From the NCBI RefSeq assembly GCF_007860015.1, contig NZ_SJPS01000006.1:1-64000 (forward strand): DNA of 64,000 nucleotides, in the 5' to 3' direction. The notes below the pieces were generated by a model. It ran no database searches, was not told the DNA's origin, and saw only the letters and a program-made list of their open reading frames with translations. Position 1 is the first letter of the stretch. Each line of letters begins with the position of its first letter. Below, piece by piece: positions 11,339 through 61,314 of the stretch. The translations under genes were made by a program, and so were the position numbers. Source of the DNA: Bythopirellula polymerisocia. Lineage in GTDB: Bacteria > Planctomycetota > Planctomycetia > Pirellulales > Lacipirellulaceae.

Positions 11339-11381
11339 GTCACAAACTACTAAACACCAACCTCTTACGACTAATATTTTT
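11339..11381 (+). repeat. Degenerate 7-bp array in gene leader
   Basis: Heptamers CACAAAC, TACTAAA, CACCAAC, CTCTTAC, GACTAAT run up to a short T tract and the ATG at 11382. The stretch is almost free of G on the coding strand and contains no Shine-Dalgarno sequence. Confidence 0.6.
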
Positions 11382-16865: not shown

Positions 16866-17771
16866 TTATAAGGTCCAACCAGGTGCTCGCGCTCTAACCA
16901 GCTCAGTTAACTTGAGTAGCGTTGGCACGTCGAGTTGCTCGGTACGAGCTTCTTCGGAGAGTTGCATTTCGGCGAGAATCTCATCCACTTCGGTCTTGGA
17001 GAGGTGATGTTTAAGCGCCGCCACGACATTGGCGCGGAGGAATTTTCGGCGGTGGATGAAGATTGCCTTGACAAATTGGTGGAAAAATCGCAAGTCGGGG
17101 ACACTGTTGCGCTTGACAGGATCAACTACGATTCGCACGATGGCCGAGTCGACCTTGGGCATTGGCCAGAATACGGTTGGTGGCATGAGTCGCACGATTT
17201 CTGCATCGGCCTGGCACTGCATCCACACACTTAGCGCACCGTAGTCCCTGCTCCACGGTTGGGCCACGATGCGGTCGCCCAGTTCTTTCTGGATGGTGGC
17301 CACCATCGTGTGGGGCACATGTTCGCACAACAAGAGATTGCTCAGCACTGGGGTCGCAATGTTGTAGGGCAGATTGGCCACCAGCTTGAAGCGGCTGTCA
17401 GGGGCTTCGGCCAGTCTTTCGCCCACTGCTTCCATCACGCGACTGTCAAAATGATTCTTATTCTTAAGGGCATCGATATGGAGCATCGTCACATGCGGGT
17501 AGTCGATGAGATGTTCGCTAGCGAGTTCAAACAGATGGCCATCGATCTCGACCGTGATCACAGCCGCAGCCTTCTCCGCCATCAGCGTCGTCAAGGCTCC
17601 GGTGCCCGTGCCAACCTCCAACACCACGTCCTGATTTGTAAGGTCGGCCGCGTCGATGATCACACGGTGGAGATTCAGATCGATGAGAAAATTCTGTCCG
17701 TGCCGCGTCGCGGGGGATATCCCCATCTCGCGGAAGCGATTCATCAAAAAGGTCTTAGTCTGGCGGCTCAT
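16866..17771 (-). CDS. rsmA: 16S rRNA (adenine1518/1519-N6)-dimethyltransferase
   Basis: 301 residues. Dimethylates two adjacent adenosines near the 3' end of 16S rRNA during 30S maturation. Motifs: GQNFLID (25-31), SAM-binding EVGTGTGALT (about 52-61), catalytic NLPYNIATP (about 139-147), and the C-terminal RNA-binding domain with RRKFLRAN. The start ATG has no Shine-Dalgarno site; instead it is preceded directly by a 75-base stretch of heptamers without G on the coding strand. Confidence 0.96.
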   Translation of the reverse strand: MSRQTKTFLMNRFREMGISPATRHGQNFLIDLNLHRVIIDAADLTNQDVVLEVGTGTGALTTLMAEKAAAVITVEIDGHLFELASEHLIDYPHVTMLHIDALKNKNHFDSRVMEAVGERLAEAPDSRFKLVANLPYNIATPVLSNLLLCEHVPHTMVATIQKELGDRIVAQPWSRDYGALSVWMQCQADAEIVRLMPPTVFWPMPKVDSAIVRIVVDPVKRNSVPDLRFFHQFVKAIFIHRRKFLRANVVAALKHHLSKTEVDEILAEMQLSEEARTEQLDVPTLLKLTELVRARAPGWTL

Positions 17772-17846
17772 TGAATTTGTGATTTGTGATTTGTGATTTG
17801 TGAGGGGTGAGGGGTGAGAGGTGAGAGGTGAGGGGTTGGTGGTGAG
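17772..17846 (-). repeat. Ten-unit degenerate 7-bp array before rsmA
   Basis: On the top strand the units read GATTTGT (about three to four copies), GAGGGGT, GAGGGGT, GAGAGGT, GAGAGGT, GAGGGGT, TGGTGGT, then GAGCCGG. There is no C on the top strand for about 75 bases, so the rsmA leader RNA is free of G up to the start codon. The longest and most regular array in the window. Confidence 0.9.
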
Positions 17847-19350: not shown

Positions 19351-19382
19351 GATTTGGGTGAGTAAGTGAGTAAGTGAGTATG
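19351..19382 (-). repeat. Short tandem array before pssA, 8-bp period
   Basis: Top strand reads GTGAGTAA, GTGAGTAA, GTGAGTA with no C for 32 bases. It ends a few bases before the pssA ATG. Same placement and strand bias as the 7-bp arrays, but with an 8-base unit. Confidence 0.75.
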
Positions 19383-22655: not shown

Positions 22656-23438
22656 TCAGATCGTCATCGCGGTAAACCCACCATCGACATAGATGGCTGT
22701 GCCTGTGATAAAGCTGCCTGCTGTAGGTGAGAGCAATAAGAGAGCCGCGCCAACCAGTTCCTCTGGCAAGCCGAAACGATTCATCGGCGTGTGCCTCATG
22801 ATGCTCTCGGTGCGATCTGGGCTGAGAATCTTACGGTTCTGTTCCGCAGGAAAAAAGCCGGGGCAGAGGCAGTTGATCCGGACGTTTTGAGGTGCAAATT
22901 CCCGAGCCATGTTTTGGGTCAGGTTGAGAATGGCTGCCTTCGTGGCAGCATACATATAGACTCGCGACAGGGGGAGAAAGCAAGTAACGCTACCGATGTT
23001 GAGAATAGACCCACCACCTTTTTCGACCATGTGAGGAATAAACGTCTGGCAGGCCAAGTGGGTCCCCATAAAGTTCGCGTCAAAAATGCCTTGAAGCTCT
23101 TCGTCGGTGATTTCCAAATAAGGAGTTGCGGAATTAACGCCCGTGCCGTTGATCAGCGAATCAACACCGCCATGTTCGGTTACCACAGTATCGAGCAGCT
23201 GTTGCAGGGATTCACGCGATGTAGCGTCAACGGCCGTAAAGGACGCTTGTCCACCAAGCTTTTCAATCGCCTTGACACGCTCCTCGCCGCGTTCTGTGCT
23301 GCGCCCTGCCACAACAACGTGAGCTCCCGCCTGAGCAATACCTTCGCAAAGAGCACCGCCTAGCACTCCCGTTCCACCAATTACGACGCAGACTTGCCCG
23401 TCGAAGCCAAATTGTTTCTGCAAGAATTCTGCGTTCAT
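22656..23438 (-). CDS. Short-chain dehydrogenase/reductase (gluconate or mannonate oxidoreductase-like)
   Basis: 260 residues. Classical SDR: dinucleotide motif GGTGVLGG (about 21-28) in place of TGxxxGxG, catalytic Ser in NIGSVT (about 145), YxxxK as YAATK (about 162-166), and the C-terminal ITGTAIYVDGGF. By overall resemblance it looks like the SDR annotated as D-mannonate oxidoreductase or gluconate 5-dehydrogenase. Sitting between gnd and zwf it may act on a sugar acid of that branch; this is context inference. A heptamer array lies 26 bases upstream of the start. Confidence 0.85.
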   Translation of the reverse strand: MNAEFLQKQFGFDGQVCVVIGGTGVLGGALCEGIAQAGAHVVVAGRSTERGEERVKAIEKLGGQASFTAVDATSRESLQQLLDTVVTEHGGVDSLINGTGVNSATPYLEITDEELQGIFDANFMGTHLACQTFIPHMVEKGGGSILNIGSVTCFLPLSRVYMYAATKAAILNLTQNMAREFAPQNVRINCLCPGFFPAEQNRKILSPDRTESIMRHTPMNRFGLPEELVGAALLLLSPTAGSFITGTAIYVDGGFTAMTI

Positions 23439-23463
23439 AAAAGTCTCAAGTCGCTGGAAATTG

Positions 23464-23492
23464 GTCGTTAGTCATTTGTCATTAGACATTCG
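23464..23492 (-). repeat. Degenerate 7-bp array before the SDR gene
   Basis: Top strand units GTCGTTA, GTCATTT, GTCATTA, GACATTC fill the space between the gnd stop codon and the SDR leader. Less G-poor than other arrays. Confidence 0.55.
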
Positions 23493-24932
23493 TTATGCTT
23501 TCGGCTTCTTCCTCAGTTGAATCCACTCGGCGTGGAAAGTGCCAGGTTTATCAAGCCGCTCGAAGGTATGGGCGCCAAAATAGTCTCGCTGGGCTTGGAG
23601 AAGGTTGGCTGGCAAGCGTTCGCGGCGGTAGCCGTCGTAGTAGGCCAATGCAGCCGAGAAAGCAGGGGTTGGAATTCCTAACTGAGCGGCCGAAGCGACC
23701 ACATGTCGCCAGCCATCTTGGGAACGCTGGATTGCCTCTTGAAAGTAGGGAGCGATGAGCAGATTCTCGAGCTTTGGGTCGGCGTCAAATGCTTCCTTAA
23801 TGCGATCCAAGAACACGGCACGGATGATGCAACCACCTCGCCACAACATCGCACATTCGCCGAAATTTAACGGCCAATCATGCTCCACCGCGGCGGCTTG
23901 CAATTGAACAAAGCCTTGGGCGTAGCTGCAAATCTTCGAAGCATAGAGTGCATCGCGGATCTGCTCGATGAACTTGGCCTTGTCGCCCGTGTAATTCGGC
24001 TTAGGGCCAGAGAGAACCTTACTTGCTCGTACTCTCGCTTCCTTCATCGCCGACAGGCAACGGGCATAGACGGCTTCCGTCACTAGTGTGCTGGGCACCC
24101 CGAGATCCAGGGCCAATTGGCTCATCCATTTGCCGGTCCCCTTGGCCCCGGCACGGTCCATGATTTTGTCGACCAGGAAGCCGCCGTCTTCGTCCTTCAC
24201 ACTGAAAATGTCGCGCGTGATCTCAATCAGATAGCTATTGAGTTCACCTTGATACCAATTCTCGAACACATCGTACAATTCGTCGTTCGAGAGTCCCAAT
24301 GCTTCGGTCAGTAGGAAGTAGGCTTCGCAGATCATCTGCATGTCGCCGTATTCGATGCCGTTGTGGACCATCTTGACGTAGTGACCAGCACCACGTGGAC
24401 CGACCCATTCACAGCAGGGGATATCGTTGTTCGGGCCGACTTTAGCTGCGATTGACTGGAAGATGGGTTTCAAATGTGGCCAAGCAGCCTCGCTGCCCCC
24501 TGGCATCATGCTGGGACCCAACAAGGCACCTTCTTCGCCCCCTGAGACACCAGTGCCGCAATAAAGCAGGCCTTTGCTTTCGACATACTTAGTACGACGC
24601 TCCGTGTCGGCATAAAAAGTGTTGCCTCCGTCGATCAGTATGTCTCCTGGCGACAAGAGTGGGATCAAGGTCTCGATGAGATCGTCGACCGCAGGCCCCG
24701 CCTTGACCATCATCATCACTTTGCGAGGGGTCTTGAGCGAGCCGACCAATTCTTCCAAACTGTGACAGCCGACAAATTGCTTGCCCTTGGCCCGGCCGGC
24801 CATGAGTTCGTCTACTTTCGAAGTAGTACGGTTAAACACGGCGACCCGATAGCCACGACTTTCGACATTTAATGCCAGATTCTCGCCCATCACAGCGAGA
24901 CCAATCAGTCCGAAATCACAAAGTTCTGCCAT
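23493..24932 (-). CDS. gnd: 6-phosphogluconate dehydrogenase, decarboxylating
   Basis: 479 residues, the long homodimeric form. Oxidatively decarboxylates 6-phosphogluconate to ribulose 5-phosphate. Visible: N-terminal GLIGLAVMGENLALN (9-23), a variant of the GxAxxG dinucleotide site; GGNTFYADTERR; VSGGEEGA; the catalytic VGPRGAGHYVKMVHNGIEYG region (about 178-197) with Lys and Asn; and GTGKWMSQ. Intact. Confidence 0.97.
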   Translation of the reverse strand: MAELCDFGLIGLAVMGENLALNVESRGYRVAVFNRTTSKVDELMAGRAKGKQFVGCHSLEELVGSLKTPRKVMMMVKAGPAVDDLIETLIPLLSPGDILIDGGNTFYADTERRTKYVESKGLLYCGTGVSGGEEGALLGPSMMPGGSEAAWPHLKPIFQSIAAKVGPNNDIPCCEWVGPRGAGHYVKMVHNGIEYGDMQMICEAYFLLTEALGLSNDELYDVFENWYQGELNSYLIEITRDIFSVKDEDGGFLVDKIMDRAGAKGTGKWMSQLALDLGVPSTLVTEAVYARCLSAMKEARVRASKVLSGPKPNYTGDKAKFIEQIRDALYASKICSYAQGFVQLQAAAVEHDWPLNFGECAMLWRGGCIIRAVFLDRIKEAFDADPKLENLLIAPYFQEAIQRSQDGWRHVVASAAQLGIPTPAFSAALAYYDGYRRERLPANLLQAQRDYFGAHTFERLDKPGTFHAEWIQLRKKPKA

Positions 24933-37705: not shown

Positions 37706-37742
37706 GAGTCAGAATGTTCTCACTCAACTCTCAAGCCTCAAC
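37694..37742. terminator. Inverted repeat between convergent genes, possible two-way terminator
   Basis: Arms 37694-37709 and 37727-37742 pair over 16 bases with one mismatch, around a 17-base loop. It overlaps the stop codons of fhcA and the aminotransferase. There is no T run, so intrinsic termination is unproven. The arms themselves are built of heptamers (GTTGAGG, GTTGAGA). Confidence 0.55.
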
Positions 37743-38857
37743 TACTCCGCCAATTCTCGCAGCACTTCCAGTCCGCGCTGCAAAGTCTCCATAGTCGCTG
37801 CGTACGAAATACGAAAATGCGTATCGCGCTCGCTAAAAATGTTGCCGGGGATAATGAGCAATTCCCGCTCGATGGCCCGAAGGACGAACTCGGCGCCGGT
37901 AGCTCCTCCATCAGGTACCTTGGGAAAGACATAGAATGCCCCGCCGGTCGGTGCAACTTCGTAACCAGCTTCTCGCAGTCCTGACACCACATAATCGCGG
38001 CGCACTTGGTACTCAGCCACCTGCGCGCTCATGTCGGTCTCGAGCGCTGCCAGACCCGCCCACTGTAATGGATGAGGCGCACACACAAATGTGTACTGCT
38101 GGAGCATGGTAAGCTTATCAATGATCGCCGCCGGGCCGTGGATCCAACCGAGTCGCCAACCAGTTACCCCATAGGTCTTACTAAAACCATCGACCACGAG
38201 GGTTTGATCGTTCCACTGGGCAGGGGAGGGGGGCACGCTGTCGTAACTGAACGTGCGATAAATCTCATCACTCAAGAGGGCGATGTTGTGCTTGGCAGCT
38301 AGTTCCGCAATGGCACGCACGCTTTCCTTGCTGGCAATCACTCCGGTGGGGTTCGCTGGGCTGTTGAGCATGATCAGCTTAGTTCGTGGTGTGATAGCTG
38401 CTGCAACTTTGTCAGGATCAATCGCGAAGTCGGGATAAGTGTCGATCATCACGCACTTGCCACCGACCATCCGCACCAGGGCGGGATACATGACGAAGTA
38501 GGGATCCATGAAGATCACCTCATCACCCGGATCGACCATCGCGAGCATCGCCATCACCAATGCACCACTAGTGCCCGAGGTGACCATCACCTGTCGATCC
38601 GCATGCCCATACTCTGCATCGACTCGCGACTGAAGTGCTTCACGCAAGGGTGGGATCCCCTGGGTGAGACTGTAGCCATTCTTGTCGCTATGAATGGCGT
38701 CGATCGCCGCGTCCTTCACCGCATCGGGCACCGGGAAGTCAGGTTGACCAATTGAAAGATTGATCGGGTTGGCCATCTTCGCCGCCAGATCAAACACCTT
38801 GCGGATGCCAGAACTATCGAATTCGCTCGTACGCTGCGCCAGCCAAGGATGGGACAT
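37742..38857 (-). CDS. PLP-dependent class I aminotransferase
   Basis: 371 residues. Aspartate-aminotransferase-like fold type I: SIGQPDFPVP (35-44), TSGTSGAL (about 93-100), NSPANPTGV (about 160), DEIYRTFSY and the PLP-binding Lys in DGFSKTYGVTGWRLG (about 223-237). Substrate is not certain; aspartate or a related amino acid is likely. Its leader is a heptamer array and has no ribosome site. Confidence 0.88.
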   Translation of the reverse strand: MSHPWLAQRTSEFDSSGIRKVFDLAAKMANPINLSIGQPDFPVPDAVKDAAIDAIHSDKNGYSLTQGIPPLREALQSRVDAEYGHADRQVMVTSGTSGALVMAMLAMVDPGDEVIFMDPYFVMYPALVRMVGGKCVMIDTYPDFAIDPDKVAAAITPRTKLIMLNSPANPTGVIASKESVRAIAELAAKHNIALLSDEIYRTFSYDSVPPSPAQWNDQTLVVDGFSKTYGVTGWRLGWIHGPAAIIDKLTMLQQYTFVCAPHPLQWAGLAALETDMSAQVAEYQVRRDYVVSGLREAGYEVAPTGGAFYVFPKVPDGGATGAEFVLRAIERELLIIPGNIFSERDTHFRISYAATMETLQRGLEVLRELAE

Positions 38858-38905
38858 AGGAATAGAGGCTAGAGGTTAGTGGTTAGAAATTAGTGGTTAG
38901 CCGCG
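38858..38905 (-). repeat. 7-bp array before the aminotransferase gene
   Basis: Top strand units GAGGCTA, GAGGTTA, GTGGTTA, GAAATTA, GTGGTTA, followed by GCCGCGA. Abuts the start codon within a few bases. Confidence 0.85.
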
Positions 38906-45490: not shown

Positions 45491-46492
45491 TTAAAAAAGG
45501 TACAACAGCGGAAATAGGAAAATCCACACCAGATCGACGAAGTGCCAATAGAGGCCGACGTTCTCGATGGTACCAAACGCAGCACGGTTAAGCGTCATGG
45601 TGAGCAGCAGGCCAAAAGCGATCAGCCCCACTATGACGTGTAAGGCGTGAAAACCAGTGAGCAAGAAATAGGTGCTCGCCCACATGTTGCCCCCTGGGAT
45701 CATGATCGGTAGCTTCAGCCAGTTATACTTGTCGTTAAGCCCTTCCAGGTGGCCACCGCCGACAGTGGTTTCATGTTCGGCCGCCACTAAATGGAAAGGC
45801 GAATCACCAGTAGCCGCATGGGACGCACTGGAAGTGTGATCGTGGATACTCGCCCGAGGATAAATCTTGTCAGCAAGCTCGAAAATCTTTATGCGACCTG
45901 CTGGGGAATCGGGTTCGTTGCGAAGTGCAACTTCCGCAGCATCTACCTCGCGGAGTAGATCGTCGACTAAACCCAGGCTCGCGGTATCTTCTTCAGTCTT
46001 GTCAGTCTTGTTTTCCAGTTCTGCCTTGAGCGTATTGAGTCGAGTGCGAACCGCTTGGGCGTAGTACACATCTGGCTTCTCATAGATTTGGCTATGAGGC
46101 AGTTGCGGATAGATGCCGTGGGAAAACTTGGCGTTGTACTCGTACATCTTGATACCGAGGAACACCAGTCCTAGTAGAAACGTCAACACCATCCAGCCTT
46201 TAGCAGCGGAGGCATTATTTTTCTTGGCGGCTTCCAAGGCCAGCACGACGGTTACGCTGGAACAGATCAGCACAAACGTGTTAGTGGCACCCCAGATCTC
46301 AGCAAGATGGACATCATGGGTCGAAGGCCAAGAAATCGCTCCGAAACGCAACACTATATAAGTGCCGATGAGCCCCGCAAAGAACATGATTTCCGTCGAC
46401 AGAAACAACCACATGAAGGCCTTACCGTTGGGTATCGGCAACGCGGGCTGATAGTCGAATTGCGGCGCATGTGCGTGATGGTCGTCGGACAT
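45491..46492 (-). CDS. coxC: Cytochrome c oxidase subunit III with a large central insertion
   Basis: 333 residues. The subunit III fold is recognisable: [19 protein letters not shown] (about 27-45) and the end [11 protein letters not shown]...[17 protein letters not shown]. Between helices, about residues 130-262 form an inserted polar segment with a charged, probably helical part ([16 protein letters not shown]) and a His-rich part. Ordinary subunit III has no such loop. The start has no ribosome site; a 7-bp array abuts it. Confidence 0.92.
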
Positions 46493-46526
46493 TATAAGTG
46501 GTTAGTGGTTGGTGGTTAGTGGATGG
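46493..46526 (-). repeat. 7-bp array before coxC
   Basis: Top strand TATAA then GTGGTTA, GTGGTTG, GTGGTTA, GTGGATG; no C for 34 bases. Joined on its far side to the palindrome at 46527-46552. Confidence 0.9.
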
Positions 46527-46573
46527 CGAGCCGGATGCATTAGCTTCCGGTAGGGTTTTCAGTTGTCAGTTGT
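46527..46573. repeat. Palindromic intergenic element with CAGTTGT repeat
   Basis: GAGCCGG, spacer, then CTTCCGGTAGGGTT (to about 46558), followed by CAGTTGT twice (46560-46573). With the array at 46493-46526 it fills the whole space between the ctaB stop and the coxC start. A close copy lies at 61229-61296. Confidence 0.75.
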
Positions 46574-47482
46574 TCATAGGGTTACTACCAAAAGCATGGC
46601 AAGCCATGCAGGGAGATAGATTAACGACGCTCTAAGTAAAAACCTCGCGGAAATCTCGTCACGGAAAATCGCGAAGCGAATCGACAGGCCCAGGAGAATC
46701 GTTCCCAGGGTGAAAGACCAGGTCAAATAGAGCAAAGGACTGCCGCTCGTGGGGACCACGGCAGGAATCAAGCTTACTGGGATCAGCACGGCCGCACCCA
46801 AGACAGCTTGAGCACCGGCACGCATGCCGCTTGGGTCTACAACCGTCAACATCCGATGACCGGCAGCAGCATAGTCGTGGCGATAGATCCAGGCGATGGC
46901 CATGAAATGTGGAAATTGCCAGAGGAATAGGACTCCCGCCAGCGACCAGGCGTTCAGCCCCAGCGGTGTTCCAGTAGCTGTCCAACCCATGATGATCGGA
47001 ATCGCTCCCGCGACAGCACCAACTGTCGTGTTAAAAGAGCTGCGGGTCTTGAGTGGTGTGTAGATCACCACATAAAGCATCCAGCTTGCCAATCCCAACA
47101 AGGCTGTAAGCATATTGACTCGCCAAACCAAAATCGCCATGCCCGCGAGAAGCGTTACGAGCGACAATAAGATTGCTTCGGCGGAACTGACTCGACCAGC
47201 AGGAAGTGGCCGATCTTCCGTTCGCGGCATGTGGGCATCACTCGAGCGTTCCCACCATTGATTGGCGATACTTGCACTGGCCGCTACCAATCCCGTGCCT
47301 GCAAGGGCAAATAGCAGGACTTGCATGTCAAGGGTGTGCGGTGCTGCCAAACACGCTGCCGCGCTAGCTACTATTAACTCCAGCAACACAATCCGTGGTT
47401 TAGTAAGTTCCAAGTAGTCGCTCAATTTCGCTACGAGCGCCCGACTCGGACTTTCAGAAGTAATAATCGTGGAGGTACTCAT
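46574..47482 (-). CDS. ctaB: Heme O synthase (protoheme IX farnesyltransferase)
   Basis: 302 residues, about nine membrane helices. Prenyltransferase signature NQWWERSSDAHMPRTEDRPL (about 73-92) with the Asp-rich farnesyl-binding site, and YTPLKTRSSFNT (about 140). Adds farnesyl to heme b to make heme O, precursor of heme A. Overlaps heme A synthase by 4 bases (47479-47482). Confidence 0.95.
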   Translation of the reverse strand: MSTSTIITSESPSRALVAKLSDYLELTKPRIVLLELIVASAAACLAAPHTLDMQVLLFALAGTGLVAASASIANQWWERSSDAHMPRTEDRPLPAGRVSSAEAILLSLVTLLAGMAILVWRVNMLTALLGLASWMLYVVIYTPLKTRSSFNTTVGAVAGAIPIIMGWTATGTPLGLNAWSLAGVLFLWQFPHFMAIAWIYRHDYAAAGHRMLTVVDPSGMRAGAQAVLGAAVLIPVSLIPAVVPTSGSPLLYLTWSFTLGTILLGLSIRFAIFRDEISARFLLRASLIYLPAWLAMLLVVTL

Positions 47483-48480
47483 AGAACGACCCCCATTCGA
47501 GAAGTGGATGACCCGACTGTCTCGGGAACTCCAATCCGCAACTGCCGAGCGACTCGCAGAGCAAGCGCCAGAGATGTTACCAGGATGAGAGAACCCACCG
47601 CCACGTGGCTGGTTACGACGACGGCCTGAAAGGCGTTATCAGCAGTATTAGCGAACGTCAGCTCACCAAACATCCGCGAGGCCCAGCGGGGCAGGCCATA
47701 CTTTACAATCCAAGTCGATCCGCCAAGTACGATTTGTACTCCAATTAATGCCCCCAGCAACCAACAGCGCCCAATAGGTTGCTTACAACGGTTGGCCTGC
47801 CAGATCAGCAACACCCCATGGACAACAATCGCCACAGCCAGCAGAACGTGGAGATAGACGGCTGCCTGGAAAACAGCGGATGCGGATTGCCCAACCAAGT
47901 GGGGGCTATGCCGCACGACGGCACCAGCAATGAGCTGCATATAAGCGAGAATCGTGGTAAGTGCTGCCAGACGGAGATATTTCCATTCCCGGGGCGAACT
48001 TTCTAACGGCTCGACGTCGCACCACCAGCGAGAAGTGATGACTACCATCGCCACGCACATGGCAAAGAACAAGGGACCAGTACAACCATGTATCAGGGCC
48101 AAAGTTCGCTCGTCGAATACAACACGCATGCCACCCAAGGCACCTTGAATGATGACGCCAACGAGTATGGCCAAGCTAAAGATGCGAACCCAATAACGGG
48201 ATTCCTTAGCCCAGGTGATTCCTACTAGCCCGATCGCAAGTAGCCCGACAATCATCCCCAAGAGGCGATGGCCATGCTCGATGAATTTGTCTCCCGTTGA
48301 ACTGAGCCATGGATAAAACGGCATCAGGTATCCGTCAGAGGTGAGCCAATCACGAAAGGCCATACCTGCACCCGTAGTAGTGACGAGTCCTCCCCACCAA
48401 ATCAGCGGAAACGTCGCGCAGGCCAGTAGCCACGCCCAGAGGTGGACAAGCGGGCTTCGGGTTTTGCGGTTGGTAATCAT
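47479..48480 (-). CDS. ctaA: Heme A synthase (COX15/CtaA family)
   Basis: 333 residues, eight membrane helices. Oxidises heme O to heme A. His ligands appear in FIEHGHRLLG (about 65-74), ALIHGCTGPL (about 127), VVRHSPHL and VTSHVAVGS. Sits between subunit I and heme O synthase, three bases after the subunit I stop. Confidence 0.93.
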   Translation of the reverse strand: MITNRKTRSPLVHLWAWLLACATFPLIWWGGLVTTTGAGMAFRDWLTSDGYLMPFYPWLSSTGDKFIEHGHRLLGMIVGLLAIGLVGITWAKESRYWVRIFSLAILVGVIIQGALGGMRVVFDERTLALIHGCTGPLFFAMCVAMVVITSRWWCDVEPLESSPREWKYLRLAALTTILAYMQLIAGAVVRHSPHLVGQSASAVFQAAVYLHVLLAVAIVVHGVLLIWQANRCKQPIGRCWLLGALIGVQIVLGGSTWIVKYGLPRWASRMFGELTFANTADNAFQAVVVTSHVAVGSLILVTSLALALRVARQLRIGVPETVGSSTSRMGVVL

Positions 48481-48483
48481 CGT

Positions 48484-50280
<1,797 letters not shown>

Positions 50281-50297
50281 GGGAAATCTCGATTAAA

Positions 50298-50331
50298 ATG
50301 ATAAATGACGAATAGTGCTTGATGAATGAAA
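50298..50331 (-). repeat. Weak 7-bp array before coxA
   Basis: Top strand units near ATGATAA, ATGACGA, ATAGTGC, TTGATGA, ATGAAAG. More diverged than other arrays and 17 bases from the start. Confidence 0.4.
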
Positions 50332-50368
50332 GCAGATTTCATTCAAGCCACATCATTCCTCAATCAAC

Positions 50369-51157
50369 TCACTCTTCTTCAGGAACCTCTACGGTCATAG
50401 TTTCTTGCTCCGCAGTAAACTCTGCCAGTTTGGCGTCGTACTCGTCGCGGGGCAGGAAAAATACCCGGCCCTTCATTTTATAATGGCCCCAGCCACACAG
50501 TTCGGCGCAGACGATGTCGTATCCACCGGTCTTCTTTCCCTTGAACCACATCTTTTGCGCCATGCCGGGCACGACATCCTGCTTAACGCGTAGATTGGGT
50601 AGGAAGAAACTGTGCAGAACGTCTGCACTGGTGATCTTTAAGAGAATCTCTTCATTGACAGGAAGATACAACTTTCCATCGGTCCGGACGATATCGTCCT
50701 GGGTATAGAGTTCGTTGTCAGGCCCAGGATAGCGGAAGTCCCAATTGAATTGCCGGCCCGTCACTTCGCACGTGTAATCAATCGCGGGAGCATCCAGCTT
50801 GTCGGCAGCCCACGCCTGCATTTGGTAAATAGCGATGAAAAGCAGTGTCACCGCCGGGATTATCGTCCAAACGAGTTCCAAGGCATGGCTGCCATGAGAG
50901 AACTTGACAGGCTGATCGTTTGATTTGCCGTTGTACTTCCAAAGGTAATAAAACAGCACGCTCTCGGTGACAATGAACACTGCGCCCGTGAGGTACAAGA
51001 TAAACATGAACAGGCCATCAATGACTCTGCCTTGTTCGGAAATGTCGCGGGGAAGCCAGATGTTGAAGTGAGGCGCAAACACAAAGGTTGCCACCCCAAA
51101 CAATGGCACCAAGAAAAACAAAAAACTCCAAAAATGCTTCACGATCGCTCTCCACAC
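50369..51157 (-). CDS. coxB: Cytochrome c oxidase subunit II
   Basis: 262 residues. Two N-terminal helices (about 10-30 and 48-73) and an outer domain with the complete CuA site: His182, Cys217, Glu219, Cys221, His225, Met228 in the pattern CAELCGWGHYKM. There is no fused cytochrome c domain, although subunit I is of the caa3-like A2 class; the diheme protein at 51183-52475 may supply that function. Confidence 0.96.
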   Translation of the reverse strand: MWRAIVKHFWSFLFFLVPLFGVATFVFAPHFNIWLPRDISEQGRVIDGLFMFILYLTGAVFIVTESVLFYYLWKYNGKSNDQPVKFSHGSHALELVWTIIPAVTLLFIAIYQMQAWAADKLDAPAIDYTCEVTGRQFNWDFRYPGPDNELYTQDDIVRTDGKLYLPVNEEILLKITSADVLHSFFLPNLRVKQDVVPGMAQKMWFKGKKTGGYDIVCAELCGWGHYKMKGRVFFLPRDEYDAKLAEFTAEQETMTVEVPEEE

Positions 51158-51182
51158 CGTTGAGATAGTCTACTCAACAACG

Positions 51183-52475
51183 TCAGTTCACCAGTTCAGT
51201 ATTAATCGGCAGGGCTCGCTGTGGCTGACTTGCATTCTCATAAGGCAACGACAACACATAATCCACAATGTTCCACATCTCTTCCTCGGTCAAAGTCCCT
51301 TGGGCACCGGGACTTGCCGGACCACTGCCGGGCATCGGGGATCCTGCGATACCAGCATAGATACGCCAAAAGAGGTCGATCCGCCGATTTCCACCCCGGT
51401 AGATTCCCTTTCTGAGGTTACGAGGTATTGCATTACGAACCGGGAACAACGACTCGGCTACTTCTGTCCGATCCTGAGCTATCTCACCTTCACCTGGGTC
51501 CTCAGCAACTGATTCCAAGAACTGCAAATGTGCCTTGTTCCAGATATCGTAGTCATCCTGCTGACCATCACCCAAGCCGGTCGGTCCGTGACACTTCATA
51601 CAGTTAGCGCGCGTACCGTAAAACAACTCTCGTCCTTTGGCCGCCGATTCGGCAAACTTTTTCATGTCACTTACATCGGTGGGGATAGCATCCTCGGCGG
51701 GGACGATGATCTGCTCGTTGGCCTCGTTCCAGCCGTCGACAATCTCGGCAAGTAACTCCTTGATGACTTCTTGCTGCTCTGGATCGTTTTCGGGATCAAG
51801 AGGAATCAACTTGGTGACAGGCTCTCCCTCGTCGTCGAGAACAGGATCGCCATTTTCGTCAGTCACCTCCTCCTCACCTAAATCGTTGTAGACATAGTTG
51901 GTGAGTGCCGTTTCCATTTGGCCGCGAAAGCTCAGATATTTGACGTACTCAACCAAAGCCTCGACTTCAGCCGAGGGAAGCAATGAGAACGACGGCATCG
52001 CTGATCCTGGAATTCCATTAACCAAAACGCGATGCAAGTCCTCGTCGGTCGGCTTCGCTGGATTGTAAGTTGATTTGAACTTATAAACCCCTTGGCGGTA
52101 ATCGCGAGGATAGGGATTCAGAAACAAAGCCGTGGGACCCATTCCATCCCCATCGATCCCATGGCAATGGGAACAGTGCTGGCGATAGAGACCAAAGGCA
52201 GCACCCTTTTGATCTGTCCATGCTGGCCCAGCAGCCATCTTTAATCTACGAATGTCCAGTCCCGTTTCGGGCAATGCAAACGGCTCGTCGGGGTCGCCGA
52301 ACATACCCCCCAGCACATTGGCAATTTGCTCTTGGTATTCGACGGGAGTAGGAGTGGCATCCGAAACCATCTGCACCATGTTGAGGTGAAACTCAGGCGC
52401 ACGAAAATCGCACCCTGTCGCACCCATTACAACCAAGGAACCCAAGAAACAAATTGAACGTAAACCGTAGTTCAT
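51183..52475 (-). CDS. Diheme cytochrome c lipoprotein
   Basis: 430 residues from ATG 52475; a TTG at 52517 would add 14. Lipobox at about 19-22 (ATGC). Two heme c motifs: CSHCH (101-105) and CMKCH (292-296), each followed by a Gly-rich region typical of class I cytochromes, with Met ligands likely in PGSAMPSF and PGSGPA regions. An acidic insert lies at about 198-240. It sits 25 bases before coxB, so it may donate electrons to CuA. Confidence 0.88.
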   Translation of the reverse strand: MNYGLRSICFLGSLVVMGATGCDFRAPEFHLNMVQMVSDATPTPVEYQEQIANVLGGMFGDPDEPFALPETGLDIRRLKMAAGPAWTDQKGAAFGLYRQHCSHCHGIDGDGMGPTALFLNPYPRDYRQGVYKFKSTYNPAKPTDEDLHRVLVNGIPGSAMPSFSLLPSAEVEALVEYVKYLSFRGQMETALTNYVYNDLGEEEVTDENGDPVLDDEGEPVTKLIPLDPENDPEQQEVIKELLAEIVDGWNEANEQIIVPAEDAIPTDVSDMKKFAESAAKGRELFYGTRANCMKCHGPTGLGDGQQDDYDIWNKAHLQFLESVAEDPGEGEIAQDRTEVAESLFPVRNAIPRNLRKGIYRGGNRRIDLFWRIYAGIAGSPMPGSGPASPGAQGTLTEEEMWNIVDYVLSLPYENASQPQRALPINTELVN

Positions 52476-52523
52476 CAAATGACTACCAAACTCATTGTTA
52501 TTCTTTAATGACAGCAATGCTGA

Positions 52524-53447
52524 CTACAACCCGAACGCAGAACTGGGAACGTTGAGATTCAATTCCTTCACTTCATCTTCATCGAGCTTAATCTTAAACC
52601 GACCTTTCTTCGACCATTTTAACTCTTTCGCTTCCGGTGAATCCAAGATCAGTGATTTTCCCGGCCCCGCGGCACTTTCGTGCCAAACCTGGAATTCTAG
52701 ATCTTCTCCCGCTGGCAAGTTAGCGATCTCGAAACTGCCGTCCTCACTTGTAATAGCAACATAGCCATTCTCCCGAGGTAAGAAATACGCCAACATCCAC
52801 GGATGGATGCTGCACCGCACACTAACTGGTACGGCCTCTTCCTTTTGTGGCTTGAAAGCAATTGTTTCGCCGACAGGAATGGTTTGATTGAAGCTGTTCT
52901 TGCCTTCGATGTTCGTATTATGACCAACTGGATCGCTATTCTTGATATCCATGGTATTTCCCAACACGAAAGGAAACACGTGAGAAAGAAACACACATTG
53001 CTTTTGATCGAATAGGACTTGCCCACCCTCAGGTTCTGCGGACTCATGCACACGTGACACCTTGCGAACAAAAACCGCAACGTTGGCAATTCCCTTCGTC
53101 GCAGAATCCACTAATAGAGTTTGTTGCAGGGGAGCCTTTCCATTGATTGTGCATGCTGCCTGATCTTTATTCACGTTATACGGCTCCATTTCGGGAGGCG
53201 TACCATCGAAGATAAAGGTTCCTTTGAGACTCGCCCAACCGGTGCCGGTTGCAACCGCAGCTCCCTCTTCGCCACTGCCAGCCTCTCCCAATAATGCTTC
53301 TCGGACCTTTACCGCTGCAGCAGGATTGGCTACGGGACCAAAGTCGGTTACTCGCCGACAGCCGATAAGCATCAATCCCACAAGCATTAGAGCGCAAGCG
53401 TACCGATCAATCTTGTTAGTTCGCACGTATGTTACTCTCTCAGCCAT
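52524..53447 (-). CDS. Cupredoxin-like lipoprotein with carboxypeptidase-regulatory-like domain
   Basis: 307 residues. Lipobox LIGC30. A beta-sandwich with possible type I copper ligands: His176 (GHNTN), Cys212, His215 and Met218 in CSIHPWM. The C-terminal part (ITSEDGSFEIANLPAG) fits a carboxypeptidase-regulatory fold. The Cys-x2-His-x2-Met spacing is tighter than in plastocyanin. Paralogue of the next gene; probably an electron carrier between the cytochrome complex and oxidase, which is inference. Confidence 0.7.
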   Translation of the reverse strand: MAERVTYVRTNKIDRYACALMLVGLMLIGCRRVTDFGPVANPAAAVKVREALLGEAGSGEEGAAVATGTGWASLKGTFIFDGTPPEMEPYNVNKDQAACTINGKAPLQQTLLVDSATKGIANVAVFVRKVSRVHESAEPEGGQVLFDQKQCVFLSHVFPFVLGNTMDIKNSDPVGHNTNIEGKNSFNQTIPVGETIAFKPQKEEAVPVSVRCSIHPWMLAYFLPRENGYVAITSEDGSFEIANLPAGEDLEFQVWHESAAGPGKSLILDSPEAKELKWSKKGRFKIKLDEDEVKELNLNVPSSAFGL

Positions 53448-53457
53448 CGTTCAATGA

Positions 53458-54243
53458 TTACTTGCCTAAGGCTTTCGCGGGGATCTTAATTTCACCCAAG
53501 TCGAGTGTCTCGCCAGATGCGATTTTCAACTTCGCTCGGCCTTTGCGATCGGTTTTCCCACCGGTCATCTTCAGATCCTTCATGTTGCCCTTAGCTTCGT
53601 GCCAGAAAATAAACTCGTGTTGACCAGCAGGAACATTCAAAATTTCGAATTCCCCATTTTCATCGCTAACCGCCATGTAGGGGTCTTCACGAACCACAGC
53701 ATACGCTTTCATCCAGGGATGAACGTTACATGCAACCGGGGCTGGGACTGGTTCAGCTTTTTGTAAGGTCTTGGTGATCGGTGCACCATTCGTAACCATC
53801 TCATTGAAACCTGGATTAGCCACAAACGAGGCATTGGTATTGTGACCGATCCCTGGGTCATCGTTACGAACTTCCAGCGGTTGTCCCGTACGGACTGCAA
53901 TCACATGCGGCTCGAAGCGACAACCCTTATTGTCTAGCACGACTGGTTCACTGGCCGATGCTTCGAAGTCGGGATGCACGTCCAAAGACTGGCCGCGCTT
54001 GGTGTAAATATAAACAACCACGTTGGCCAACCCACCATCATCACCTACGACGACTGTTTCATCGACAAGGTCGTGCTTGCCACAATACTCGGTGTCTTTG
54101 TTGACATTGATGGCAGCCGGATCACCGACTGAACCATCGACCACAAATTTACCCTTGATAGATCCCCAATCTGCTGCGTTTAGTTGACTTGTTAACATAA
54201 GCAACAACATCGTGGTGCTGTAAATTGTAAATAGTTTTCGCAT
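53458..54243 (-). CDS. Periplasmic cupredoxin-like protein, paralogue of 52524-53447
   Basis: 261 residues. Sec signal peptide (1-23, cleavage after LNA), no lipobox. Same order of motifs as the neighbour: GHNTN (His134) and CNVHPWM (Cys172, His175, Met178), then DENGEFEILNVPAGQ. Probably soluble, where the paralogue is lipid-anchored. Lies directly after the octaheme gene. Confidence 0.7.
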   Translation of the reverse strand: MRKLFTIYSTTMLLLMLTSQLNAADWGSIKGKFVVDGSVGDPAAINVNKDTEYCGKHDLVDETVVVGDDGGLANVVVYIYTKRGQSLDVHPDFEASASEPVVLDNKGCRFEPHVIAVRTGQPLEVRNDDPGIGHNTNASFVANPGFNEMVTNGAPITKTLQKAEPVPAPVACNVHPWMKAYAVVREDPYMAVSDENGEFEILNVPAGQHEFIFWHEAKGNMKDLKMTGGKTDRKGRAKLKIASGETLDLGEIKIPAKALGK

Positions 54244-54270
54244 CTTGATATCCTCCTCTGCTGGATGACT

Positions 54271-57200
54271 TTACTTAAGAGATTCTTCGTCGCCGCGGGC
54301 ATCGGATGTCTGCGGTGCGTTGGCTTCGGCCGCAGCTTTTACCATGGGGGCAACTTCGGTTTGCCGTTTGGCAAAGGTATCGAAATTCAACAACAGGTCT
54401 ACTAGCCCCGTCAACTGCTCAATACTGGTGCCTGAAAAAAGGTTTTGAGCGACTCCCCCGAGATGCGGCGCATCGGCATTAAAGGGAATGTTAACAGGCA
54501 TGCCTGTGTAAGGCAGGATTCGTTTCGGATTGGCTACCCAATTGCGAATGTACTCAGGCCGCAAGCGGGGATGCACATTGGCAAGGTTCGGGCCGAAGGT
54601 CGTAGGATCACCCTGCGGGTAAAAGTCCTCCACTGCATGGCACTTCACGCAGTAGTTACCATTGACCACGATATTCATCGCTTCCTGGAATCGCTCTGGA
54701 TGCTCGGCTTCCTGATCTGCAAGGTAACTCCCGCGCTGACTGCGGTTGTACTCATACGGATATTCGGCACCCGATGAAGCAGCGAAGTAATTGACCAAGG
54801 TAGAGGCTTCATCGCTCGACAAGTGGAAATTGGGCATCCGCATTACGACCGCAGGACGAATCTCTGTGGGGTCCATCAAGAAGGCATGCAACCAACCGGG
54901 CTGTACCTTAACGCCTTCTTCCATCAGTGGCGGGGGCAACCAACCCCAGGCTTCGGAGCCTTTGACTTGCGGGTTCGTCTGCTTAGCGTGATCGATCACC
55001 TTCGAAAACAAGTAACGAGTCAGGTCGCCACCCCAGGCCGGGAATGCGTTACCCTCGGCGGGGCCATAACCAGTGCGACTCCCGGGCACCATGGGGTCTT
55101 GAATCCCGACGTTCCAGGCTTCGCCAGCAATAAGTGTGTCTCGCCAAAGTGTAAAGCGATAGTAGGGATCCGACTCATCGTCGTCCTCTTCGATCTGCAA
55201 ACCATCAATGTCAAACCGTTCCGGTTCGCCAGTTTCTTCGTTCATCACCGGCAAGCCATTGAGCGTCGTATGCATCCGCCCGCGCGTATCAACGACGAGT
55301 GATTCAGCAATCTGCTGTTCAGAGAAATGCTTCCCTAGGAATGGATAGTCCTGGACCTCGATCGGAGACTCGAATTCCCCCTCCTGGAAAGCTACCTGCC
55401 ACTGCTCCATCTTCAGCGTATGGCAACCGGCACAATTGAAGCGATCAAGCACCTGGCGACCTGCAATTACTGCAGCTGTGCGGGCATCTGGTTGGAAAAC
55501 AAACTTCTCGGCGGGAGGTTCGCTCACCAATCCGAGTACAAAAGTAATCACCTTCTCACGCTCTGCCTCTGTGAACGGGAATTTTGGCATGCGCAGACGC
55601 TCGTTGTAACCCTTGTTCTTGGTCGTCTTGTAGTCGTAGCTCCGTGGAAACCGAAGCTTTTGCCAAATGAAACCATCGCGAGCATGACTGACCAAGGCCT
55701 GGAGATAGTAGCTGATGCCATCTTCCACATAGTCGCCCGGATTAAGGTGGCCATGGCCCCCGGCATGCTCCGCATCGTCCCCATGCGAATTGCCAGCCTG
55801 CTCGTCATGAGACTGATCAATCTTATGCGGATCGCCGGGCCCGGCGAGGAAGGCATGGATATTCTCAAACGCAAGCTTTGAGCTGTCCTTGCGGCCCCAG
55901 TCAGCCAGACCAGTACCAATCGGCTTTGCTTCTTCGTATCCAGGAATATCGTGGCAGCCAAAACAACCGTACTTACTGATTGTGCGGCGGGCAACAAAGT
56001 CTTGTAACTGCTGCGTGCGATTAGCAAAGTTTTTCTTCAACAGCAGCTTCTCATCTGCTTTTAGTTTCGGCTCCAACGAGTCGGGGATGCCATTCTGGAC
56101 AAATTCCTTTGCCCGATCAGCAGGAATGGCATCACTTGAGAGCCACTCTTGAGCCAAATCGGCCAGTGCCGACAACTCTTCATCAGACCAATTGCGAGCG
56201 GGAACGTCTGTAGGTTTCCAATCCGAAGGAGTACCCAGGAGGAAAGCGGCAATGTCCGCCGCGGGATCGGTGATCTTGCCTGTCGGTTGGTTTTGCGCAT
56301 CCTTTTCGACAATTGGATCGAGGTACAGATTAGGCATTTTAGTGCGGGTATTATAACGATGCGGTTGCTTCACCCAACTGTACAACCACAAGGCTCCCTT
56401 CTTGTTGTTCAACTTGGCACCAACCCGTGATAGATCAGGACCTTGATTGGAAGCGATGCCTGTAAAAGCTTCATGCGAATGGCAAGCCAAGCAGCCACGT
56501 GATTCAAAGAGCCATTTGCCACGCTCGGCAGACGCCGCCTCAGTAACCTCTTTCGGAGGAGTGAGGTATGTGAAATCGGAACTATTCGACAAGAGGTACT
56601 CGCTCATAGCGTGAATTTCCACAGCCTCGAACCGTTTCGTCTTGGCCAATTCCTCAGGATCCTCCTGAAGATGCTCCCACAACCCGAAGAATTGCGGCAT
56701 ACGGGTTGTTGGTCGGAAGTTCGAAGGCAACTTGATCCAGCTGTAAACCCAGTCGAAATCAACTTTCGATTTCAAGTAACGCAGGCTGGGGCCAACCTTG
56801 CGATAGGTCCCGGGGACTTCGACATCTTTCAGGCCGTCGGCAAGCTTGTGCGTCTCGGCAGTCAAACGGGCTTCATTACGAGTTTCGGAACTTGATGCCA
56901 GTTTGGCATCAGACTTAAGCGCATCGAACAATGAATGCCGCGCGCTGTTGTCATCGGGGTGATTTCGTAGTGTCTTGGCCCATGCTTGTTCCTGCTCGTT
57001 CAAGTCGCCATCGCGAAGAAGCTGCGCAGCAACTTCGCTATAGGGAGGTTCGAGCCGCAAGTCGGGACCAACTCGCTTATCGGGTCCGTCGTAGCCATTG
57101 ATCTCATGACAGCCGTAGCAGCCGTATTGCTCGACAAGGGTCCAGCCCTCAACCAACTTTGGTGCAGGGGGTTCGGGGAAGCGTTCGCTCGGTTCCAAGC

Positions 57201-58839: not shown

Positions 58840-58931
58840 TTTGTAGTTAGTAGTTATTAGGCGCTAGGCGCTGGTCAGAGTCACTCTGTTAGTATTTCTG
58901 ACTAGCGTCTAGATACTAGTGGCTAGCGCCA
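58840..58931 (-). repeat. Heptamers plus imperfect inverted repeat before octaheme gene
   Basis: GTAGTTA, GTAGTTA, TTAGG (58840-58861, no C), then an imperfect inverted repeat from GGCGCTAGGCGCTGGTCAGA (about 58860-58879) to TCTGACTAGCG...GGCTAGCGCC (about 58897-58930). It occupies the gap between cytochrome b C-terminal and octaheme genes. Confidence 0.7.
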
Positions 58932-58935
58932 TTAA

Positions 58936-60360
58936 TTAAAAATTAAAAAAGAACTCCGGAATCGCAATCAAGTATTTCAATTGAAACACCCACCGCAGGA
59001 CCATCTTGATGGGGAGCGATGCCATAAACAACAACAGGTTCGCCATGATCATGAACCGAATGAAGCCCATTCTCTGGTAAAAACCGCGGAAGACTGTTAG
59101 AGCCATAACCGGAGGGAGGGCAATAAAATAACCGAGTACCAGCAGTGTGCCCGGTAACTCGCGGCCAAATAGCAGCGAGAAAAACTGCAAAAACGGATTC
59201 AGAAAAGCCGTCAACCACGCAGGCAGAGGAATCCAGGGCATATCCGAGAAGGACAGCGCACCTGGCAAACTCATATTTAATCCTCGTTGCCAAACATACT
59301 CCGAGAGATTCACGTTGTTGAGCGCTTCTACTTTGTGCGCATCCCAATGCTCGTAAGGCCCAAAAAAGTTCCAGTTTGGTCCGCGCAGGAGAGTTCCCAA
59401 CACGATCAAAGTGATCCACATTTCCAAGAAGCCAAATTGGAATACGATGTAGCTGAACTGACGTTCCTTGATCGTGTAGTAGCCGTTCCCCTTCTTGTTG
59501 AAGTCCAGATAGGGAATCGCCATCAATCCGGCCACGATCATGCTCGGAAGCACAACCCCAGCCATCCAGGGATCGTAATAGACGAGCATTTCCTGCAAAC
59601 CAAGGAAGTACCAAGGGGCCTTCGAAGGGTTAGGGGTCTTAACGCTGCTCGCCGCTTCTTCGAGGGGTGCTGGTAAAGCAATCGCCCAAAAGATCAAGAA
59701 GGCGGTGAGCGCGATCATGCAAATCAATTCGGTGTAGACAAGGTCTGGCCACACGAGAATTTTCTCGTCGTCGAGTTTCTCCAGCGGTGGTTCACCATTG
59801 GCAATCCGCTCGTCATTGATTACGGCCCGATAGGTCGCCAGCCAGGTAAAGAAGGCCAGCAAGAATACAAGCATCACGATGGGAACATTATCTGGCTTCG
59901 CCACAATGTCGTAGAAGTCGGGGTCTGTCATCGACAACCCGAGGAACAACCACATCAGATTCCAGATCGCCCAGGCAATAGCTGGTCGGACGAAAAACCC
60001 TCTAAATAGATAAAGAATGATAAGGACAGCCGACGACCCCACGCTATAGACCACGGGACCAGTACTATTATTAATTGCCTCGCGCAGCCATTCGGGCAGA
60101 GAAGCGATTGATGTATTGCCGCTACCGGCAATCGCAGCCAAGACGGCAAAAACCATGGCAACCAGCAGCCAGACAACTACGTTGGTGATTGCGACCCGCT
60201 TACCACCAATAGAGCCTGGAAGATTGAACCAAGCCTTCGTCTGCCCAGACCGCCAGAGATACAGAGCAGCCAGCCCGTTCATTAAAGCCAGCGCAATGTA
60301 ATAGGGCCCCAAGAACGAGGAGACCAAATCCTGAAACTGAAGTTCCGACAGTCCGTGCAT
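58936..60360 (-). CDS. Cytochrome b C-terminal subunit (subunit-IV-like, extended)
   Basis: 474 residues, about eleven helices, much longer than b6f subunit IV (about 160). An N-terminal group of four to five helices (1-180) precedes the subunit-IV-like part. At the quinol-oxidation site the usual PEWY is APWY (248-251, in KAPWYFLGLQEML). The C-terminal helices extend past the usual end. Follows the b6-like gene on the same strand; a heptamer leader precedes it. Confidence 0.85.
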   Translation of the reverse strand: MHGLSELQFQDLVSSFLGPYYIALALMNGLAALYLWRSGQTKAWFNLPGSIGGKRVAITNVVVWLLVAMVFAVLAAIAGSGNTSIASLPEWLREAINNSTGPVVYSVGSSAVLIILYLFRGFFVRPAIAWAIWNLMWLFLGLSMTDPDFYDIVAKPDNVPIVMLVFLLAFFTWLATYRAVINDERIANGEPPLEKLDDEKILVWPDLVYTELICMIALTAFLIFWAIALPAPLEEAASSVKTPNPSKAPWYFLGLQEMLVYYDPWMAGVVLPSMIVAGLMAIPYLDFNKKGNGYYTIKERQFSYIVFQFGFLEMWITLIVLGTLLRGPNWNFFGPYEHWDAHKVEALNNVNLSEYVWQRGLNMSLPGALSFSDMPWIPLPAWLTAFLNPFLQFFSLLFGRELPGTLLVLGYFIALPPVMALTVFRGFYQRMGFIRFMIMANLLLFMASLPIKMVLRWVFQLKYLIAIPEFFFNF

Positions 60361-60404
60361 GCTTTAGTGGCTAGTGGTTGTTGGTTTGTGGCTAGAGGAG
60401 AGTG
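60361..60404 (-). repeat. 7-bp array before cytochrome b C-terminal gene
   Basis: Top strand units GTGGCTA, GTGGTTG, TTGGTTT, GTGGCTA, GAGGAGA. Ends within six bases of the start codon. No ribosome site. Confidence 0.8.
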
Positions 60405-60451
60405 TCGCGCGGCCATAAACTAGCTGCCCGCCACTCACCACAAGCTCCTCA

Positions 60452-61228: not shown

Positions 61229-61250
61229 ATGTGGCTAGTGGTTAGTGGCG
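61229..61250 (-). repeat. 7-bp array before cytochrome b6-like gene
   Basis: Top strand GTGGCTA, GTGGTTA, GTGGCGA, running into the palindrome at 61251-61274. Directly abuts the start codon. Confidence 0.8.
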
Positions 61251-61296: not shown

Positions 61297-61314
61297 TTGT
61301 ATTCCGCAAGTCTC

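Follow-up and report, generated by a model that had tools for sequence, protein, structure and literature searches.

Several genes of Bythopirellula polymerisocia are preceded by short tandem repeats that are poor in G, and the question raised by this locus is whether such repeats are made for translation or tolerated beside it. The window is a stretch of 64,000 nucleotides (contig positions 1-64000) from a genome assembly of 6,143,780 bp in 27 contigs with a GC content of ~53%. A first-pass annotation had listed ten arrays with a 7-bp period, or 8 bp at pssA, before start codons, and had described them as nearly free of G and as taking the place of the ribosome site. Two readings were offered: unstructured leaders that drive Shine-Dalgarno (SD)-independent initiation, or tolerated repeats similar to the STRRs of cyanobacteria. 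Arrays were scored as the best lag-7 run in the 60 nt before a start (match +1, mismatch -1) and called at a score of at least 8; the score thresholds were fixed post hoc, once the arrays had already been pointed out. With this measure, seven of the ten are 7-bp arrays with a score of at least 8, and the array at pssA has the 8-base period ascribed to it. The one at 50298 is borderline, and no array is present at 11339. The poverty in G holds on average and not strictly, the arrays of the window containing 0-5 G each. The SD site, defined as GGAG, GAGG or AGGA at -20..-5, is missing from all ten leaders, as had been stated. Two arrays past stop codons (166-195 and 46555-46573) were missing from the earlier list. 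The features are as follows.

166-195, strand not assigned: 7-bp array past the stop of the minus-strand gene 202-972, G-rich in the sense of that gene.
11339-11381, plus strand: G-poor leader (2 G in 43) without array; lag-7 and lag-8 scores both 4.
17772-17846, minus strand: longest 7-bp array; lag-7 score 42; 0 G in 75 nt; TRF repeats 17775-17803 and 17800-17846.
19351-19382, minus strand: 8-bp array of the unit CTCACTTA, before pssA; lag-8 score 15; 0 G; also found with TRF; 2 nt before the ATG at 19348.
23460-23507, minus strand: degenerate 7-bp array, AATGACT-like; score 13 and 5 G in 29 for 23464-23492.
38858-38905, minus strand: 7-bp array of CTAACCA; score 15; 4 G; before the aminotransferase gene 37742-38857.
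46493-46526, minus strand: 7-bp array of CTAACCA; score 15; 0 G; before the cytochrome oxidase subunit III (COX3) gene 45491-46492.
46555-46573, minus strand: 7-bp array of CAACTGA, directly past the stop of the gene 46574-47482; it shares its spacer with 46493-46526.
50298-50331, minus strand: borderline array; score 7; 17 nt before the COX1 gene start at 50280.
58840-58872, minus strand: 7-bp array of AGCGCCT and then ACTAACT; score 14 and 0 G for 58840-58861; it abuts the ATG of the multihaem gene 54271-58839.
60361-60404, minus strand: 7-bp array of CTAGCCA; score 11; 3 G; before the gene 58936-60360.
61229-61250, minus strand: 7-bp array of CTAACCA; score 9; 2 G; it abuts the ATG of the cytochrome b gene 60452-61228.

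On the coding strand, the longest array consists of CACCTCT/CACCCCT units followed by four copies of ACAAATC, and it stops 3 nt short of the ATG of the rsmA/ksgA gene (16866-17771). The degenerate array at 23460-23507 starts within the end of the gene 23493-24932 and ends ~22-25 nt before the SDR gene start at 23438. Four of the seven start arrays in the window are hosted by a respiratory cluster (45491-62346), which encodes Rieske, cytochrome b and multihaem proteins and cytochrome c oxidase subunits. The multihaem protein has about 1520 residues and a PDZ match, and the gene 58936-60360 encodes a membrane protein with a sub-threshold match to ExtQ. Within the window, no Rfam family matched at the gathering threshold, and no tRNA gene was found.

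The analysis was extended to a sample of 1.264 of the 6.14 Mb (twelve 100 kb blocks and the window), with uncurated gene starts called by a hexamer-based gene finder whose training set was this sample itself, and to the sister species G005 (6,473,141 bp in one contig). A chance origin of the arrays is ruled out by other lags and by shuffles. Arrays with a score of at least 8 occupy the last 50 nt before 7 of the 51 starts in the window; mononucleotide shuffles of the 51 leaders give 0.19 on average and 2 at most (300 rounds). Order-1 resampling of each 50-mer gives a mean of 0.69 and a maximum of 4, a figure inflated because the repeat words are inherited. At a threshold of 10, the 1.264 Mb contain 50 noncoding and 7 coding lag-7 segments, against 3-15 noncoding segments at the other lags from 4 to 13 and 35 at lag 14, the harmonic of 7. 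The bulk lag-7 match rate over all noncoding DNA is not raised, so the arrays are sparse. The window is richer in them than the remaining sample (7/51 against 13/769 starts, p = 1e-4).

The period is not strictly seven, since arrays of the octamer CTCACTTA are present in both genomes, at 19351-19382 and, in G005, after the orthologue of g6 69783. The spacers 46493-46573 and 61229-61314 share a short palindrome (CCGGAAGC...TCCGGCTCG) that lies immediately ahead of the array. This palindrome was considered as a carrier of the arrays and rejected, since it occurs only twice in 1.264 Mb of this genome and once in 0.4 Mb of G005.

The arrays are not confined to starts. Of the 820 starts, 20 have a lag-7 score of at least 8 in the 50 nt before them (1-4 for lags 4, 5, 8, 10, 11 and 13), and of the 820 stops, 19 have one in the 50 nt after them (0-5 for the other tested lags). 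The G005 figures are 10/245 starts and 10/244 stops, other lags giving 0-2. Being as frequent near stops as near starts, these are spacer repeats and not start elements. By spacer length, arrays precede 15 of the 232 starts behind spacers of 40-160 bp and 5 of the 464 behind longer ones, and for 16 of the 20 start arrays the gap to the start codon is no more than 12 nt.

The strand of the arrays distinguishes starts from other places. Upstream of starts, C exceeds G on the coding strand in all 20 arrays of this genome (20:0), 13 of which lie outside the window by subtraction, and in 8 of 10 in G005 (8:2). Downstream of stops, the ratio of C-rich to G-rich arrays is 10:7 and 3:7, respectively. 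Among all leaders of this genome, C exceeds G in 50% and equals it in 10%. In tandem spacers of 40-250 bp from both genomes, 21 arrays near the start are C-rich and none G-rich, and those near the stop are divided 7:7 with 3 ties (p = 5e-4). Arrays in long tandem spacers, more than 60 nt from both ends, include 12 C-rich, 11 G-rich and 2 ties; in divergent spacers, arrays farther than 60 nt from a start codon point to the nearer one in 10 cases and away from it in 11. Within 60 nt of a start, the ratio is 3:1 in long (>250 bp) tandem spacers and 3:2 in divergent ones. The bias is thus clear-cut in short, operon-like spacers and slight in the others. The main result is that the repeat process looks strand-blind, while the start region does not. 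The strand bias noticed in the first-pass annotation is total at the starts of this genome and strong in G005, and it gives way to balance away from starts. The same annotation had held that arrays equally common in both strand senses, or away from starts, would refute a translational role. Away from starts they are indeed common and balanced, which means that starts are not what they are made for; beside a start codon the bias persists.

The relation to the SD site depends on distance. In this genome, an SD site accompanies 1 of the 16 arrays that end within 12 nt of the start, compared with 203 of the 673 leaders without array (p = 0.049); for arrays farther than 12 nt, it is present in 3 of 4, between the array and the start. 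In G005, the corresponding counts are 0/6, 1/4 and 58/199 (p = 0.19 for 0/6 against 58/199). The statement that arrays take the place of the ribosome site therefore fits the close arrays only. The genes g3 63628 and g5 54053, presumably GroEL-like and GroES-like from their sequences, have arrays upstream of an AAGGA site and not in place of it. Among family orthologues of array genes, an SD site is found in 2 of the 43 leaders with an array and in 14 of the 58 without (p = 0.011), the latter figure being close to the 27/84 of other genes (p = 0.35); the non-array groups of this comparison include leaders that overlap the upstream gene. The array and the SD site thus behave as alternatives, and in another species the same gene may use an SD site. 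Since the array-less orthologues have it as often as other genes, the array genes are not SD-independent in every species. One 16S gene (L341), the sole 16S among the pattern matches, has an intact GGATCACCTCCTTT end. Two rpsA-family genes are close together on contig C1, at ~193.5 kb (L339) and 202.7 kb (L338); one lies above its curated cut-off, together with an in-frame neighbour match, and the other scores below it.

The leaders with arrays are predicted to be open. Folding of positions -40..+36 gave a mean unpaired fraction over -30..+3 of 0.715 for array leaders (n = 20), 0.506 for SD-less leaders without array (n = 100, p = 3e-7) and 0.491 for SD leaders (n = 60), and with 120 nt of context the first two became 0.641 and 0.468 (p = 7e-6). 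When the array was reversed in silico, the fraction fell to 0.427; when the leader was shuffled, it was 0.679 (p = 0.10). In G005, the difference has the same direction and is weaker: 0.626 against 0.516 (n = 8, p = 0.07), 0.625 against 0.514 in a second count (n = 10, p = 0.026), and 0.533 against 0.456 with 120 nt of context (p = 0.13), the effect of reversal having p = 0.31 and that of shuffling p = 0.74. The period was considered as the cause of the openness and rejected, as shuffling alters little. Because reversal closes the leader and shuffling hardly does, it is the composition, namely the poverty in G, that opens it. Weak predicted structure at the start, as expected of SD-independent open leaders, is therefore found in this genome and more weakly in G005.

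For the comparison of species, 17 array genes were selected (score at least 10, within 30 nt), of which 12 were compared in five relatives and 3 in the respiratory cluster; 22656-23438 and h4 91781 belong to neither set. An array with a score of at least 8 is kept at the same place for 9 of the 12 genes in G005, 6 in G010, 2 in G009, 1 in G007 and 1 in G019, and retention is lower with the distance of the relative. The 9/12 in G005 compares with 10/245 for all G005 starts and 4/16 for G005 leaders with at most 3 G (p = 0.02). Among controls, a small and picked set of 5 conserved-looking genes out of 14 drawn, arrays occur in 1 of the 16 orthologous leaders.

In the respiratory cluster, arrays precede 20 of the 40 family orthologues of the four array genes and 6 of the 86 of the other 13 genes (p = 1e-7), and 4 of these 6 precede COX1, which has an array in 4 of its 9 family orthologues. 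The gene 58936-60360 has one in 8 of 11 family orthologues and the cytochrome b gene 60452-61228 in 3 of 10. All 26 arrays have C in excess of G, save two before the gene 47479. Among the genomes at order level, the cluster leaders carry arrays in 4/32 (array genes) and 2/55 (other genes).

Of 11 hand-picked stop-proximal arrays, out of 22, 3 have a counterpart in G005, one of which is in fact the start array of the next gene, against 9/12 at starts (p = 0.04). In this comparison, the G010 rows of g7 25661 and win 202 are one stretch and count as one place. When a period-8 stop array of G005 is counted, the figure becomes 4/11 (p = 0.10); the start leader of the GroEL-like gene in G005 has a lag-8 run, and counting it gives 10/12 against 4/11. 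As the counting of period-8 arrays changes the retention at stops, that retention at starts exceeds that at stops is suggestive only.

The repeated words are less stable than the sites. At the aminotransferase gene, the units in five genomes are of the CTAACCA, ATTCCGC, CCCCTCA, TCATTCC and CTCCGAC types, and arrays of another unit with a score of at least 8 are present at the same place in 4 of the 5 relatives. At a gene that we take to encode a PII-like protein, the ATTCCG type is kept in four genomes. The similarity of arrays averages 0.346 for orthologous sites (112 pairs), 0.311 between different sites within a genome (368) and 0.265 otherwise (1600). For 14 pairs of arrays from this genome and G005, similarity is 11.0 against 7.9 (permutation p = 0.0014). 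Judged from the sequences, the units appear to combine some descent and some within-genome likeness with much turnover. Composition is also kept where the array is missing: orthologues of array genes with neither array nor SD site have 5.0 G per 30 nt (n = 41), compared with 7.7 in the remaining genes compared (n = 58, p = 3e-5) and 6.4 in SD-less leaders of this genome (n = 274, p = 0.003), leaders overlapping an upstream gene being included in the non-array groups. It seems that the constraint on these leaders is composition, and arrays are one way to meet it.

The best named match of the cytochrome b protein is from Adhaeretor mobilis (98%), in a search that may omit the species itself and very near records. 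Among 80 named cytochrome b loci, 60 leaders could be scored, the other 20 having no ATG near the match, and 6 have a score of at least 8 at lag 7, against 0-1 leaders at other lags. All 6 are in records titled as planctomycetes, five with C in excess of G and one G-rich. Of 199 genomes drawn from the phylum, 6 contain three tandem copies of CYARCCAC, this genome included and no other family member being drawn, and the spread of one unit through the phylum is therefore rejected. The 30 loci examined for it contain 16 distinct arrays of this unit: 6 have an ORF start within 20 nt in the sense direction, 0 in the antisense, and 7 neither within 60 nt. Some of those from this genome are also part of the main sample.

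The explanation that fits these observations best, and that is given somewhat better than even chances, is that the heptads would be born by slippage without regard to strand in the spacers and be filtered at starts for open, G-poor leaders. Duplication of 7 bp would generate degenerate heptad repeats in intergenic spacers on either strand, and hardly any copies would be retained in the initiation region unless their coding strand is C/A-rich and G-poor. The start bias is probably caused by selection on the messenger, since an array in the other orientation would pair across the start codon or present spurious, G-rich SD sites. An open G-poor leader could serve instead of an SD site, perhaps with ribosomal protein S1. 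Slippage would renew the array, the unit drifting or being swapped while the site often keeps an array. The earlier idea of STRR-like repeats tolerated at starts is supported in a sharper form, with a strand-blind origin and with only C-rich copies, G-poor in the sense strand, beside the start. The idea that arrays drive SD-independent initiation went further than the data, as the arrays are not start-made, and what stands of it is that array and SD site look like alternatives. In sum, the first-pass annotation was mostly right in its observation and in its tolerated-repeat reading, and its translation-driving reading has been sharpened to a question of reversing or shuffling the array.

A further possibility, for now a tentative one, is that core genes keep the place, period and strand of the array while the repeated word is rewritten across species. 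A lineage-wide process would then renew 7-bp repeats, selection at the start would set their direction only, and ribosomes would obtain open, SD-free landing sites from mutational raw material.

It is unlikely that the arrays are selected translational elements, A/C-rich repeats that recruit ribosomes to core genes by binding S1, a cold-shock protein or another RNA-binder. The same genes keep arrays across species, and S1, Csp or Csr was proposed for TAACTGA repeats in the available text of MacGregor (PMC4679880). The 12 traced array genes also have a best match in all five relatives (60/60) compared with 16/25 for the 5 controls, although the array genes were fetched with more effort. Against such elements, five genomes have five units at one site, and similarity at orthologous sites is 0.35 against 0.27 otherwise; units that differ so widely at the same site fit no sequence-specific protein. 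In addition, a shuffled leader is nearly as open, and 41 of the 60 orthologues have no array.

Somewhat less probable still is that the arrays are purely neutral spacer repeats with no bearing on translation, the start bias reflecting the general composition of leaders. Their equal frequency beside stops and starts and their abundance in long spacers agree with neutrality, as does the fact that, with period-8 arrays included for stops, retention there is not clearly below that at starts (p = 0.10). The composition of leaders does not suffice for it: 50% of leaders with C in excess of G and 10% ties are too few for 20:0 and 21:0. Moreover, leaders with at most 3 G in 30 carry arrays in 11/52 cases in this genome and 4/16 in G005, below the retention of 9/12.

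That the arrays are arms of hairpin elements, either mobile or similar to terminators or attenuators, G-rich after the stop and C-rich before the start, is very improbable. A complementary upstream arm was found in 7 of the 30 array spacers (z at least 2.5 against shuffles), most strongly in G005 with GCTAA and CCACTAA arms, and those leaders could be paired; inverted array pairs are also present in this genome. The other 23 spacers, including that of the longest array at 17772, have no such arm. In the spacer 58840-58935 and in the orthologous G005 spacers before 54271-58839 and 58936-60360, a G-rich arm after the stop may pair with the C-rich array, and the window spacer 60361-60451 has a similar heptad arm with only z = 1.5.

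A stop-codon barrier, in which a unit with TAA, TAG or TGA closes all three frames before the start because 7 is coprime to 3, as noted for TAACTGA in the available text of MacGregor (PMC4679880), is hardly credible: all three frames are closed in the last 30 nt in 6/20 against 7/100 leaders of this genome and 3/8 against 3/100 in G005, but the reverse strand closes them about as often (5/20 and 3/8), so a barrier does not explain the orientation, and by reading, the sense strand of the longest array, at 17772, is free of stop triplets.

STRRs of Cyanobacteria are tandem heptamers of several units. The present arrays, which are degenerate, intergenic tandem heptamers of several units, are like them, STRRs being known for cyanobacteria. 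We know of no start-specific strand filter or site-by-site comparison described for STRRs. A heptanucleotide repeat report on Calothrix is mentioned in the accessible part of Rehm et al. 2015 (PMC4692102).

TAACTGA repeats of marine Beggiatoaceae are, according to the available text of MacGregor 2015 (PMC4679880), mostly intergenic, mostly forward and just upstream of starts. An SD site is present in only ~10% of the repeat spacers, no pattern of gene function is seen, and such repeats are also found in Cyanobacteria and Bacteroidetes; translational regulation was suggested. The present arrays are likewise heptamer direct repeats, mostly intergenic and in forward orientation a few nt upstream of starts, and SD sites are rare with them when they are close (1/16 within 12 nt), not when they are farther (3/4). 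Whereas TAACTGA is, as far as that text goes, one fixed heptamer with related ones rare, the units here are many (CTAACCA, ACAAATC, CAACTGA, GCTAATA, ATTCCGC, ACTCGTA and others, instead of a TAACTGA unit) and drift or are replaced at the same site. The arrays here are also strand-balanced away from starts and belong to another phylum.

The GGGAATC and GGGGA(C/T)T repeats of Xanthomonas and Nostoc form G-quadruplexes, have a period of 7 and are mostly transcribed, as described in the accessible part of Rehm et al. 2015 (PMC4692102). Their preferred place is the spacer of aligned genes, at most 50 bp before an ORF and with the G-rich strand anti-sense, and an inverted pair is shown there; copies past stops prefer the sense strand. 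The period of 7 is shared by the present arrays, as is the orientation in the 50 bp before an ORF, where the non-coding strand is G-rich and the coding strand C-rich. In contrast to those fixed, G-quadruplex-forming units, the arrays here have no clear bias downstream of stops (10:7 and 3:7), and by reading, GGG/CCC runs are absent from most units and present in few (CCCCAG types), in which most differ from units of the G-quadruplex kind.

Planctomycetes are among the phyla with small fractions of SD genes, and the start regions of non-SD genes tend to be less structured, as reported in the available text of PMC5397173; the open leaders here differ from that account of SD-independent initiation in that they carry repeats. 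'Satellites in the prokaryote world' (PMC6749651) includes, in its accessible part, satellites of Rhodopirellula baltica and a mention of heptamer-derived families, but nothing like the present arrays. A search of the open PMC literature, with supplements outside its scope, gave no report of heptad arrays in planctomycete leaders. The kind of repeat is thus known from TAACTGA and GGGAATC, and relative to the available texts on those, the turnover of units at kept sites and the strand bias restricted to starts seem to be new.

If the preferred reading of strand-blind origin and filtering at starts is right, it would separate where short tandem repeats arise, which is in any spacer and on any strand, from where they can persist; next to a start codon, they would persist only when G-poor on the messenger. 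The reports on Beggiatoaceae, Xanthomonas and Nostoc would be tied to one rule. The arrays would also be a natural experiment on the requirements of a leader without SD site, in a phylum which, from the available text of PMC5397173, has few SD genes.
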